IMG/VR virus record: IMGVR_UViG_3300022693_001499
Location: 1 to 22,293 of that record
Origin: a virus
Strand: one strand, 5' to 3'
Length of the DNA: 22,293 nt
The notes under the pieces: model-generated
Database searches by the model: none
The model's input: only the letters and a program-made list of their open reading frames with translations
What the model was told of the DNA's origin: nothing
Shown here: in pieces, positions 13,143-18,682 of the stretch
Position numbering within the stretch: the first letter of the stretch is position 1
Layout of the letters: each line of letters starts with the position of its first letter
Position numbers and translations under genes: made by a program

Positions 13143-13234
13143 ATAATCTTCCCTTTCCTTACAGTGCCATTATCTTCAGAAGATATGCGGAAAATCAGGT
13201 CGCCTAAAACATCGTCCAATGTCACGCCTATCAT
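13139..13234 (-). CDS. 31-residue small protein coupled to both neighbours
   Basis: An ATG at 13234 overlaps the stop of the methyltransferase fusion gene (ATGA), and its own TGA overlaps the ATG of the next gene (ATGA). It fills the whole space between them. The product starts MIGVTLDDVLGDLIFRIS and ends with a basic tail (VRKGKII), so it resembles one short helix or hairpin with a charged end. The strict coupling on both sides suggests a real gene, as chance ORFs rarely have both. There is no known family I can name. Confidence 0.6.
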   Translation of the reverse strand: MIGVTLDDVLGDLIFRISSEDNGTVRKGKII

Positions 13235-14403
13235 GAATTCAGTGTCCTCACTTCTTTTTCAGGAAAAAGGCTTTTATATCGCTCAACAATCACATCGCAG
13301 TAAGACGGATCAATCTCCATCATGTGGCATTTGCGATTCAACTTTTCACAAGCGATCAGGGTGGAACCGGAACCGCCGAATAGATCAAGAATGCTCTCGC
13401 CTTCCTGGCTGGTCTCTGTCAGAACATCTTCCTGTAATTTGATGGGTTTTTGATTGGGGTGTACTCTTTTCCCCGCCTCGCCTTCTTTAGCGAACCCCAT
13501 CCAGACACAATCAAATTTATGCACTCGTACCCCTTCAATATTTGACCAGGCTAATTCGCAATGCGACAAACGCATTCCCTGCCCCATATGTTTATCCCAA
13601 ACAAACCACCTGCCTCCTCGGGGTAAAAGATGGGCGAAATAGTTGCCACCCCACAAAAATACTTTGCTAACACCCAAATCAAGAATGAAAGCCGGATTAA
13701 ACTCTTTATCATCACCAATCACGGGTTTGAATTTTGTTGCTGGATGCTTTTTCCCTCCTCCTTTCGTCCTGTGTTTATCTATCAGGTTAATTCCATAAGG
13801 CGGATCAGTTAAAACCATGTCCGCCTGCTCCCCATTCATCAGCTTTTCTACTTGAGACTTATCCGTTGAATCGCCGCACATTAAACGGTGTGGACCCAGT
13901 TGATAAATCTGGCCCGGTCTCGTTACCGCCTTTTCAGGGGCTTCCGGGGACTCATCTTCGTCTTCCAATAGTCCAATATCGGACAAATCCAACAATTCGT
14001 CTAATTCCTGTGGCTGAAATATATTTTCCAGCATCGCTGGAAGTTCTATATCAATATCCTTGAGAACATCAATATCCCAGTCTGCCAACTCTGCGGTGCG
14101 GTTATCATAAAGAGCTAGTTTTTTCTTCTGATCGTCACTCAATCCTGTCCTTTGAACTGCTATCAATTCATTTCCATTAGCCTGGACCACTCTAACTTTT
14201 TCAATCCCGCATTCACCTAATGCCTCGACAATCCCATTTCCAGCTAGTACAATGCCATCTTCATCAATAACAATAGAACGACCAACCCCAACTTCACCGA
14301 CAGATTTAACAATCATGCCGATGTTGCGAGGATTATGCTTTCTTGCATTCTTAGGGTCCAAAGTTAAATCAGCCAATGAACATTCTTTATCTTGTTGGGC
14401 CAC
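13231..14403 (-). CDS. ParB-like / beta-class DNA methyltransferase fusion
   Basis: I prefer the GTG at 14403 (390 residues), with AAGGG 5-6 nt upstream. An earlier GTG at 14478 keeps the frame open but lies in the tandem repeat and has no ribosome site. The N-terminal ~110 residues resemble a ParB/Srx-like domain, with NARKHNPRNI and DGIVLAGNGIVEAL in the positions of its conserved boxes. A linker with an acidic DEDESPEAPE stretch follows. The C-terminal part is a methyltransferase with DPPYG at ~200-204, NQKP at ~317 and LDLFGGSGST at ~340-348. Motif IV before I is the beta class. ParB-methylase fusions are common in phages. No restriction partner lies nearby. It probably protects phage DNA or affects the packaging signal near the terminase genes. 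Confidence 0.92.
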   Translation of the reverse strand: MAQQDKECSLADLTLDPKNARKHNPRNIGMIVKSVGEVGVGRSIVIDEDGIVLAGNGIVEALGECGIEKVRVVQANGNELIAVQRTGLSDDQKKKLALYDNRTAELADWDIDVLKDIDIELPAMLENIFQPQELDELLDLSDIGLLEDEDESPEAPEKAVTRPGQIYQLGPHRLMCGDSTDKSQVEKLMNGEQADMVLTDPPYGINLIDKHRTKGGGKKHPATKFKPVIGDDKEFNPAFILDLGVSKVFLWGGNYFAHLLPRGGRWFVWDKHMGQGMRLSHCELAWSNIEGVRVHKFDCVWMGFAKEGEAGKRVHPNQKPIKLQEDVLTETSQEGESILDLFGGSGSTLIACEKLNRKCHMMEIDPSYCDVIVERYKSLFPEKEVRTLNS

Positions 14404-14418
14404 TTTAACCCTTTCACG

Positions 14419-14492
14419 TGGGTAGCTGGTTATCCAGTGGCGCGGCTTTTGCCTCCGCGTCGGCTTGGGTGTCTGCACACCCGGGCCTACTC
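14419..14492 (+). repeat. Tandem cloverleaf repeat, copy 1
   Basis: This 74-nt unit matches 14505-14576 with a period of 86. As plus-strand RNA it folds with GGGUAG/CUACUC closing three arms: CUGG-UUAU-CCAG, GGCGCGG/CCGCGUC with a 9-nt loop, and GGGUGU-CUGC-ACACCC extended by GGC/GCC. It looks like a tRNA in outline, but the first loop is only 4 nt and there is no T-loop sequence, so it is not called a tRNA. It overlaps the optional N-terminal extension of the methyltransferase fusion on the other strand. Confidence 0.6.
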
Positions 14493-14504
14493 TTATCTTT
14501 TTAA

Positions 14505-14576
14505 TGGGTAGCTGGTTATCCAGTGGCGCGCGTTTAAGTCGCGTCGGTTCGGGTGTATCAGGCGCCCGGCCTACTC
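14505..14576 (+). repeat. Tandem cloverleaf repeat, copy 2
   Basis: This 72-nt unit keeps the same four stems as copy 1. The third arm is GGGUGU-AUCAG-GCGCCC, where two A-to-G changes turn U-A pairs into U-G pairs; the extension is GGU/GCC instead of GGC/GCC. These changes keep pairing only when read as plus-strand RNA; on the minus strand they give C-A mismatches. The repeat lies between the 25-residue gene and the methyltransferase fusion. Confidence 0.6.
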
Positions 14577-14579
14577 ATA

Positions 14580-14657
14580 CTACTTCCTAGGTTTCCTAGG
14601 CTTTCTCGGTTTCGTAACTTTCCTACCTTTGGTGGTTCCGTTCTGATGTTTTGGCAT
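14580..14657 (-). CDS. 25-residue Lys/Arg/Pro-rich peptide
   Basis: An ATG at 14657 has GAGGT 9 nt upstream and opens 25 codons. The product starts MPKHQNGTTKGRKVTK and ends in PRK repeated three times, each encoded by a 9-nt direct repeat that includes CCTAGG. It carries no acidic residue. This composition suggests binding of nucleic acid or an acidic partner, but there is no named family. It begins 23 nt after the stop of the previous gene. A longer in-frame ORF that starts at 14831 would overlap that gene extensively, so I reject it. Confidence 0.55.
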   Translation of the reverse strand: MPKHQNGTTKGRKVTKPRKPRKPRK

Positions 14658-16418: not shown

Positions 16419-17195
16419 TTAACTGAAATCTGATGAAAAATCAGAACTGAACGCAAAGGGAAAAGTGAGACTTATTCCCCATTTATTGATGAAATAAGTA
16501 TGGGCCTCATCAAGCTCTGTACTCGTTAATATGCGGTTCCAAATTGCCATCTCACCCAAATCCCCATCAAAAGGACGATTTAAACCAGCGCTATTCCCAA
16601 CAACCATTTCTCCCGTTCCGTCCTGAATGACACCGCTTGGCCCAGAAAATCTAAGAGTTGCTGTCTCCAATACCCCATCTCTATAAAAATTAGGGACGTT
16701 GGCCACGTCAGAGCCATCATACGTAATAGTTGAAATAAGTGTGGTGTTCAATCCATGGGGCGAGAACCAAATAGCGTTACTGATAGAAAACTGTGTATTA
16801 ATGTTGATCTCGCTACCATTGTTTTCTAGAAATATCTCCACGTGGCCCTGTAGATTCATGGTACGAGGGAAATCACTCCCAACGTTACGTGATACAAACA
16901 TGATGGTTGCCCCTGTAGAAAATATCCCAGCCAGGGATGCCGTTGCCGGAACAACCAAGGCGTCATTACTACTGTCCCAGGTAATCGCATCCACTCCATT
17001 CAGACTGCCACCGGTTTGTGGCTGCATGGTCCCCGTTGTTTGTACTGCCTCATTCCCAGTACCACTCTTATCCCCCCACTGAGAAACGAATCCGCCAGAT
17101 TCTATTGTTCTGGCAGAATCGGTAGCATCCGACCAGAATTGCAATCCAGCAATCTTGTTAGGAGAAAATGCCTGCGATGCAATAATTCCTGTCAT
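16419..17195 (-). CDS. Split receptor-binding-like protein, C-terminal half (LamG/ConA-like)
   Basis: I place the start at the ATG at 17195 (258 residues), which overlaps the previous stop as ATGA and has GGAGA 6 nt upstream. The pattern is of a LamG/concanavalin-like lectin domain: AGLQFWSDATDSARTIES, then SQWGDKSGTGNEAVQTTG and QPQTGGSLNGVDAITWDSSN, a middle with TIMFVSRN, and a C-terminal GEMAIWNRILTSTELDEAH. It is homologous to residues ~118-355 of the single gene at 17615-18682. A C-terminal FSSDFSSDFS tail is absent from the other copy. It probably binds a cell-surface sugar or displays a variable tip, together with the 119-residue product. Confidence 0.75.
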   Translation of the reverse strand: MTGIIASQAFSPNKIAGLQFWSDATDSARTIESGGFVSQWGDKSGTGNEAVQTTGTMQPQTGGSLNGVDAITWDSSNDALVVPATASLAGIFSTGATIMFVSRNVGSDFPRTMNLQGHVEIFLENNGSEININTQFSISNAIWFSPHGLNTTLISTITYDGSDVANVPNFYRDGVLETATLRFSGPSGVIQDGTGEMVVGNSAGLNRPFDGDLGEMAIWNRILTSTELDEAHTYFINKWGISLTFPFAFSSDFSSDFS

Positions 17196-17551
17196 GCAAG
17201 GTCTCCGATCAATCTCCATTCATCGGTATCAATCTTTTTCAAAGTGGCCGCAGAAAACTGGGCTCTTAGGGACAATAAGCTGTCTCTGGATTGAACAACG
17301 GCCGCTCCAGACACAGCGAAGGTAACGGTTCCCACGTCTTCTCTTACAAATTCCATTTCAGCCCCGATCGGAAAACCTTCGGCGGCGTTGTCTGGAATAG
17401 TGATGGTTTGAGCCGCCACATTATCCATGACAAAGAATGTTAGATCATCGGCAACAACAAGGTTTTTGGCTGTACCGGTAAATATTTCTACAGGGAAAGC
17501 TCCACTACCACTGCCCCCGCCCGCACCCCCCTCATCTATTTGGATAGACAT
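17192..17551 (-). CDS. Split receptor-binding-like protein, N-terminal half
   Basis: The 119-residue product is a paralogue of the first ~118 residues of the gene at 17615-18682. Shared parts include the Gly/Ser-rich linker GGGSGSGAFPVE, FFVMDN, TIPDNA, PIGAE, SGAAVVQSRD and DEW. It is beta-rich and likely to anchor or cap the fibre. The stop overlaps the next start as ATGA; both codons lie in a 17-nt insertion compared with the fused copy. AAGG is 8 nt upstream of ATG. The domain is probably the attachment part of the receptor-binding protein. Confidence 0.75.
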   Translation of the reverse strand: MSIQIDEGGAGGGSGSGAFPVEIFTGTAKNLVVADDLTFFVMDNVAAQTITIPDNAAEGFPIGAEMEFVREDVGTVTFAVSGAAVVQSRDSLLSLRAQFSAATLKKIDTDEWRLIGDLA

Positions 17552-17614: not shown

Positions 17615-18682
17615 TCATGCGATACCCCATTTGTTTTTTAAAATGCTTTCGACAGCGAGAATCTCACCGAGACTCACATCCCTCCCATAAACAACCAATT
17701 CGCCGGCGGTCATAACGGGAAATATCTCGATTGAGCCTCGGCCAATACAAAAAAACCCAGATGAAGCCAATGCGCCATTATAGGTGTCCGTGGCAATGTC
17801 CACGCCATTGATGCGTAAATTTACGGACCCATCGCCCGCCGATAATCGATACACAATAAGCGTATCCAGACCTGTAAGATCAGTAGGACTTTGGGGCTCG
17901 TTGGTGGTCGCCCCCAACCCGTTAGAAATAAATTTTGCCCGAAACTCGTTAGGGACGCTGCCGTCTCTAATATTAAAACCTCTAACGAGTGGGTCGGTAT
18001 AGCCCATAACAGAGTCGAAAGTTAAGGAGGCGGTAACATTCATAACCAGGAAAAACGTGATGCTGGCTGGCAACGCCAGTGAGGTTACTGCAAGGAAATC
18101 ATCGTCCCCATCGAATCCAAGCGCATTGAGACCATTAATTGTAGCTACCCCTGTTGTCGGCTGGTCAGAGGAGGTAGCTTGGACGAAATCATTTGCATTC
18201 CCGGATTTGTCCTGCCAGGTGCTCACAAACCCAGGAGTGTCAGCTTCTAAAATAGTTGCTGGGTCTGCACCATCATTCCAGACAACTAAATCAGAGAAGC
18301 TCGCTGGAGAAAATACTCCTGATGCAAGATCCCCGACCAACTCCCATTCATCGATGCCAATCTTTTTTAGAGAGACCGCAGAATATTGGGCGTTGATCGA
18401 AAATAAGTTGTCCCTGGATTGAACAACGGCAGCCCCAGAAGCCAAAAAATTAACGCTCCCCACGCCTTCCCTGATAAAATCGATTTCAGCCCCGATCGGC
18501 AAAGCTTCGTCAGCGTTGTCTGGAATGAGGACGGTCTGAGTCACCGCATTGTCCATGACAAAGAATTTCTTATTGCTACCGAGATCAAGAACTTTAGCCG
18601 TATCGGTAAATAGCTCTACAGGAAAAGCTCCGCTACCGCCACTCCCTCCGCCCGCAGTTTCTGACTCTACTTGAATTGACAC
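17615..18682 (-). CDS. Fused receptor-binding-like protein (attachment module plus LamG/ConA-like module)
   Basis: The product has 355 residues and starts from a GTG with GGGGAA upstream. Residues 1-118 match the 119-residue paralogue downstream and 118-355 match the downstream 258-residue one, so this is the single-gene form of the same pair. The N-terminal part includes a Gly/Ser-rich linker (GGGSGGSGAFPVE) and a beta-rich domain. The second part contains SWQDKSGNANDF-like STWQDKSGNANDFVQA, GLNALGFDGDDDFLAV, ITFFLVMNVTA and a final AGELVVYGRDVSLGEI, which is the LamG/ConA lectin pattern. It would sit on the virion and bind the host surface. The tandem arrangement points to recent duplication. 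Confidence 0.8.
   Translation of the reverse strand: MSIQVESETAGGGSGGSGAFPVELFTDTAKVLDLGSNKKFFVMDNAVTQTVLIPDNADEALPIGAEIDFIREGVGSVNFLASGAAVVQSRDNLFSINAQYSAVSLKKIGIDEWELVGDLASGVFSPASFSDLVVWNDGADPATILEADTPGFVSTWQDKSGNANDFVQATSSDQPTTGVATINGLNALGFDGDDDFLAVTSLALPASITFFLVMNVTASLTFDSVMGYTDPLVRGFNIRDGSVPNEFRAKFISNGLGATTNEPQSPTDLTGLDTLIVYRLSAGDGSVNLRINGVDIATDTYNGALASSGFFCIGRGSIEIFPVMTAGELVVYGRDVSLGEILAVESILKNKWGIA

Follow-up and report, generated by a model that had tools for sequence, protein, structure and literature searches.

The window (the whole stretch of DNA analyzed, 22,293 nt) is a 22.3-kb virus fragment with a P22-type portal gene, other head genes, a terminase gene, and tail fiber genes. 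All of these lie on the minus strand, as do the two genes that flank a pair of tandem repeats. One flanking gene, here called gene B, encodes a DNA methyltransferase and starts at a GTG (position 14403) 17 nt from the first repeat unit; the other is a tiny basic gene. When upstream regions are compared, the start region of gene B (14401–14419) is found to occupy the position at which relatives of the repeats have a plus-strand promoter. Elsewhere in the window, positions 17194–17521 and 18322–18649, which are 1128 bp apart, are 77–78% identical and belong to tandem paralogous virion or lectin-type genes. The features of the locus are as follows.

13231–14403, minus strand: gene B, ParB-like/N6-N4 DNA methyltransferase (PHROG 498, E 5e-82; Pfam N6_N4_Mtase)
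14401–14419, minus strand: GTG start of gene B (14401–14403) and its likely ribosome-binding site, abutting the 5′ end of unit 1
14420–14492, plus strand: unit 1 of the putative cloverleaf RNA, 73 nt (fold, family structure, covariance model R1 at 68.2 bits)
14420–14424/14488–14492, plus strand: P1 of unit 1
14425–14429/14434–14438, plus strand: P2 of unit 1, loop UUAU
14439–14444/14456–14461, plus strand: P3 of unit 1
14462–14472/14477–14487, plus strand: P4 of unit 1
14493–14505, plus strand: T-rich spacer between the units, 13 nt (TTATCTTTTTAAT; from the sequence)
14506–14576, plus strand: unit 2 of the putative cloverleaf RNA, 71 nt, with the same four helices (fold, R1 at 80.4 bits)
14580–14657, minus strand: tiny basic gene on the other side of the repeats, 25 aa (MPKHQNGTTKGRKVTKPRKPRKPRK), no homology established

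Both units were used in building R1, and their scores should be read with this in mind. The units start 86 nt apart, and T-rich 3′ flanks like the spacer are seen after many family members. The initial annotation, made from sequence alone, had described two tandem repeats whose differences preserve pairing, that fold better as plus-strand RNA, and that lie antisense to flanking genes that are all on the minus strand. Each of these points held: the differences are real, and on the plus strand each unit folds into a perfect four-way junction, with energies of −38.9 kcal/mol for unit 1 and −35.5 kcal/mol for unit 2 and z-scores of −3.86 and −3.55 (0 of 200 shuffles as good). The minus strand folds worse, with z-scores of −2.5 and −1.0, respectively, and the block of both repeats taken whole gives −6.3 on the plus strand versus −2.2 on the minus strand. 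What did not hold exactly is the closing stem, given initially as GGGUAG/CUACUC. Comparison with the family refines it to 5 bp, GGGUA/UACUC, with G6 instead forming a wobble pair with U20 at the base of arm 1, which leaves the junction without an unpaired base; pairing in arm 3 continues through GG(C/U)..(G)CC as far as the junction.

The element resembles a tRNA only in outline, as had been proposed. ARAGORN finds no tRNA gene in the window, and the arms carry UUAU, variable, and variable loops. Rfam 15 gives no match at or above the gathering score in the window or in 15 homologous loci, and none at E ≤ 5 around the repeats. A BLAST search of the element against known phages and plasmids likewise returned no homologue.

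Database searches did recover about 70 further copies, carried by related uncultured phages, by prophages in 6 of 77 Nitrospinota genomes, by 44 other viral contigs, and by prophages of the phylum to which a Desulfuromonadales genome belongs. Phylum assignments follow the titles of the records from which the searches started. An exact 25-mer search yielded two more viral contigs, each having a single unit in a different gene setting. Looser patterns for the 5′ half and the 3′ half gave nine element-bearing contigs in all (L002–L004 and L006–L011), two of them with a second copy (G001 and G007), and a further pattern retrieved L025, a very divergent member whose four helices all keep pairing but with different bases. 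L025 is syntenic with L010, and in both the element precedes a Dam gene. L005 and ten other pattern matches were judged to be chance.

When 84,980 bacterial and archaeal genomes were scanned, true matches occurred only in Nitrospinota. There a covariance model placed the element in regions resembling prophages, ahead of com-like genes, Dam/Dcm genes, or both. No P22-like portal was found in the Nitrospinota genomes, and the host of the window thus remains unproven. A wider model located the element in two genomes of the phylum that includes the Desulfuromonadales genome; one of the two has two copies. The 16-base conserved core of these copies, used as a plain pattern with no structural demand, brought in 53 new viral contigs, and 44 of the 53 match model R2, whose training set did not include them. 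The final model matches 7 of 63 genomes in the class to which G432 belongs; further copies in this class are L181–L184, which have promoter-like sequence and the fold, and L188, which has the fold. For the R3 matches L185–L187, the locating step settled on other places, and these three were left out of the counts. None of 399 Pseudomonadota genomes matched R3, nor did R3 match near the Dam genes of 12 known phage and plasmid records, including phage B3 with its com-Dam pair. Searches with the small gene B proteins reached few loci, only one of them new and that one without the element. The carriers are phages of different types with at most two copies per contig, and a packaging or nuclease signal, an alternative raised at the outset, finds no support.

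Retrieval by pattern predetermines part of the core. In the Dam-linked viral contigs, it exerted no selection on P3, P4, the 3′ strand of P1, or the promoter. Contigs that are related do not count as independent and form 24 clusters at 80%. Alignments built with the model lean toward the model, and some checks were made on MAFFT alignments instead.

The family fold is a cloverleaf of about 68 nt in which four helices meet without linkers or nearly so: P1 of 5 bp, to which the Dam-linked group adds GCGGA/UCCGC; P2 of 5 bp with a UUAU loop; P3 of 6 bp with a variable loop; and P4 of 9–11 bp with a variable loop. The conserved core reads GGUAGC..GGUUAUCC..GU. With 11 copies, 98.2% of cells were paired and 9 pairs had changed on both sides; with 20 copies, compensatory changes were present in 15 pairs; and with 61 distinct copies, 96% of pair positions were paired and 22 of 25 pairs were compensated (0 of 500 shuffles at each stage). 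The covariation score for the 61 copies was 0.544 versus 0.195 ± 0.010, and structures slid along the alignment scored at most 0.08, with paired cells dropping to about half or less. Re-pairing is seen in P2 (CUGG/CCAG, CGGG/CUCG, CGAG/CUCG), in P3 (GGCGCG/CGCGUC, GGCCUG/CAGGUC, AAGCG/CGCUU), and in P1 (U-A, U-G, C-G). RNAalifold recovers the same four helices from the Dam-linked group alone in its own alignment. The covariation in relatives that the initial annotation had named as a check is therefore present, and its suggestion of a folded plus-strand RNA, possibly a new noncoding RNA, is supported.

This pairing is kept on one strand only. Wobble pairs on the structured strand numbered 88 G-U versus 1 A-C in the first 20 copies and 184 G-U versus 4 A-C in a second count; G-U pairs make up about 18–22% of paired cells and sit at fixed junction positions. 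Because neither a structure on the other strand nor a symmetric duplex-DNA structure would give such a G-U bias, both are disfavored, and the covariation and wobble bias together point to a strand-specific RNA fold, with single-stranded DNA less likely. Sequence comparison thus shows a four-way-junction cloverleaf of about 68 nt maintained by compensatory changes on a single strand.

In the Dam-linked group, the structured strand also has its own promoter, TTGATT-N17-TGC-TAtaaT, of the sigma-70 type with an extended −10, which ends 14–54 nt before the element. This pattern is present in 22 of 24 cluster representatives, compared with 0 of 24 on the other strand and 0.9% of random windows. The pattern was composed after inspecting the sequences, there are no transcript data, and the promoter is established for this group only. 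Most of the Nitrospinota group keeps an extended −10 (TGATATAAT, TGATAAACT, TGGTAAACT, TGCTATACT). No sigma-70 promoter or terminator was recognized on the plus strand beside either unit of the window, and most window-type phages have no −10, the ribosome-binding site of gene B occupying its place. The RNA interpretation is supported in this respect by the Dam-linked relatives and not by the window itself. A T-run of at least 3 follows the closing stem in 16 of 24 Dam-linked representatives versus 20% at random; it is short, and in many copies, including unit 2 of the window, it is short or absent. A scan for intrinsic terminators called none.

The gene context is nearly constant. In almost all copies, gene A is followed by the element in reverse orientation and then by the ribosome-binding site and coding sequence of gene B, so that the element, intergenic throughout, lies immediately upstream of an accessory gene and opposite to it. 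This arrangement is shown by sequence comparison. The identity of gene B varies: of the 47 cases found recently, about 44 have a Dam methyltransferase (two counted by eye); elsewhere it is com-Dam or Dcm in the Nitrospinota prophages, and a small membrane protein or an unknown gene in other phages.

Several loci bear on how the unit moves. The closely related phages L008 (8401–8760) and L009/L009a (2241–2581) have in common gene A (about 80% identical DNA) and the element and have unrelated genes B, making the element the point of gene exchange in this pair. In G004, the element occupies the site at which the homologous position of the window holds a membrane-protein gene. The two copies in G001 agree at 96% over the unit, with a single inserted base between them, and have unlike flanks, which indicates that the unit was copied exactly. 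The suggestion of a mobile repeat, also made at the outset, is to this extent borne out. Copies truncated at the 5′ end occur as well (G007b, G009b, and G012). The copies at L009 4167–4234, L050 3305–3347, and L059 521–583 have lost the 5′ end and kept the 3′ end, and in all three a TATAAT on the other strand adjoins the element; the flank AATTATACCTT is common to the first two and to the intact copy of L011/L050. Retrotransposition was considered for the 5′-truncated copies and rejected, as three cases are too few and no enzyme is linked to them.

We consider it likely that the repeats belong to an undescribed family of small structured RNAs borne by phages and prophages of several bacterial groups, most often directly ahead of a DNA-methyltransferase or lysis-type gene, although no transcript has been seen and the function is inferred. 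The conserved strand-specific fold and the promoter aimed at it in most relatives are probably those of a small RNA gene, again in the absence of expression data. We predict that transcription of the RNA begins at a promoter of its own and runs away from gene B, that the closing stem and U-rich tail form its 3′ end, and that the cloverleaf itself is the functional product. Its most likely role would then be that of a small RNA of an accessory (moron-like) slot between tail genes and lysis or modification genes, damping or timing expression of the late A-B mRNA by divergent or antisense transcription and pairing. Because the −10 of the window appears to have been replaced by the ribosome-binding site of gene B, another source of transcription would be needed there, either an unrecognized promoter or longer plus-strand transcripts. 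An antisense effect on gene B alone leaves the strongly conserved core without explanation, which suggests a partner acting in trans, and we predict that a protein binds this core. Since gene B varies among methyltransferases, com, membrane proteins, and unknown genes, there is no single common target gene.

Known systems offer partial parallels. Like the small regulatory RNAs encoded by phages and prophages (reviewed in PMC12197685), the element is short, structured, intergenic, and located on mobile genomes, and in the Dam-linked group it has its own promoter. Unlike them, it has a four-way-junction cloverleaf with no Rfam match to any described RNA, its conservation extends over phages from two or more bacterial phyla, and it has a fixed antisense place before gene B. 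In Nitrospinota prophages, the element precedes a Com-like zinc ribbon gene and a Dam gene, the position of the late modification operon of phage Mu. Com is a translational activator that binds RNA (PMC6483171), and at mom Mu carries a divergent promoter, momP2. The element differs from com-mom, however, in that its structure is on the strand opposite the com/dam mRNA and most carriers lack com. It resembles integron attC sites and REP sequences in having structure conserved more than sequence, one folded strand, exact units, and an intergenic location in fixed orientation, but it is a cloverleaf rather than a rod, is rich in G-U pairs, and is promoter-driven in the Dam-linked group. The attC boxes R″/R′ (RYYYAAC/GTTRRRY) were not found at the element ends when alignments A3 and A11 were read by eye. 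The GTAG tetranucleotide of REP sequences is present before arm 1 in most copies, though the L011/L014 copy reads GCAG and L025/L036 is also different.

The main rival to a small RNA gene, which we regard as unlikely, is a folded single-stranded DNA site, attC- or REP-like, for recombination or transposition of accessory genes. The strand that folds is the one that serves the late genes as template. In favor of this rival, the exact unit ends in G001, the exchange of gene B between L008 and L009a, the replacement in G004, and the truncated copies are all as such a site would have them. Against it, the share and fixed placement of G-U pairs are RNA-like, G-T being weak in DNA; a conserved promoter is aimed at the element in the Dam-linked group; R-box motifs were not seen; and plain homologous recombination at a conserved noncoding stretch also explains the gene exchange. 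Also unlikely is a structured terminator that keeps antisense, plus-strand transcription from entering the late operon. The lengthened closing stem and T-runs of the Dam-linked group and the T-rich flanks of several Nitrospinota and phage copies fit this idea, but the T-runs are inconsistent, the scan finds no terminator, and termination would require neither a conserved UUAU loop, nor the junction, nor a promoter of its own 20–50 nt upstream.

A riboswitch-like leader that regulates gene B in cis from its sense mRNA would account for the fixed place beside the ribosome-binding site and start codon in nearly all copies, and a sense-strand TATAAT does lie just before the element, in only four isolated or truncated copies. 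On the sense strand, however, the closing stem no longer forms, no more than 16 of the 25 pairs survive, and G-U pairs turn into A-C; moreover, at most loci this strand is the interior of a polycistronic late mRNA. We consider a sense leader very unlikely and reject it because of the wobble bias and the missing closing stem. An origin in chance inverted repeats, in a relic tRNA, or in coding constraint could be entertained because the element is GC-rich (about 65% versus 44% for the contig), but the lack of any tRNA or Rfam match, the roughly 70 homologues with compensatory changes, and the intergenic location throughout all but exclude them.

The small RNA reading thus remains the one we favor, and it describes a well-supported, previously undescribed structured RNA in unrelated phages of little-studied bacteria. 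Its fixed link to methyltransferase, com, and membrane-protein genes raises the possibility that phages use a dedicated small RNA to time or protect anti-restriction and lysis functions, and the covariance model would permit annotation of uncultured phage contigs and mark a point of accessory-gene exchange. A bolder reading, which we consider less likely than not, is that of a widespread RNA family acting in trans via a dedicated protein or a target in the host, such as a counter-defense RNA or superinfection RNA that is paired with the anti-restriction locus Dam/Com. Under this bolder reading, the RNA could be expressed in lysogens from its own promoter, and it would constitute a four-way-junction class unlike any described.

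A link to diversity-generating retroelements (DGRs) holds for only part of the loci. As with the DGR target hairpin, the element follows a variable-protein-like gene A ending in GARAVLVP in 8 loci, and a reverse transcriptase (RT motif) is nearby in 5 loci, all with such a gene A. Unlike that hairpin, the element is a 68-nt four-way junction, and most carriers, including the window, show no DGR. On the reverse-transcriptase motif, the element does not qualify as a DGR target hairpin, and the link was set aside. In L114, L115, L116, L140, and L166, the element and Dam lie within an apparent DGR cassette comprising a variable protein ending in GARAVLVP, an Avd-like gene, and a reverse transcriptase.

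Individual loci show further variation. In L100 8907–9777 (G022), com is gone and its start and first four codons remain before Dam, a remnant of gene deletion. The Dam gene is truncated or frameshifted and the RNA element intact in two Nitrospinota prophages, L101 (G040) and L099 (G011). In L181–L184, L136, and L117, the presumed 5′ RNA leader contains UCCGC or CCCGC, a complement to the GCGGA/GCGGG in the closing stem, and it is possible that a leader hairpin and the closing stem form a switch in these copies.
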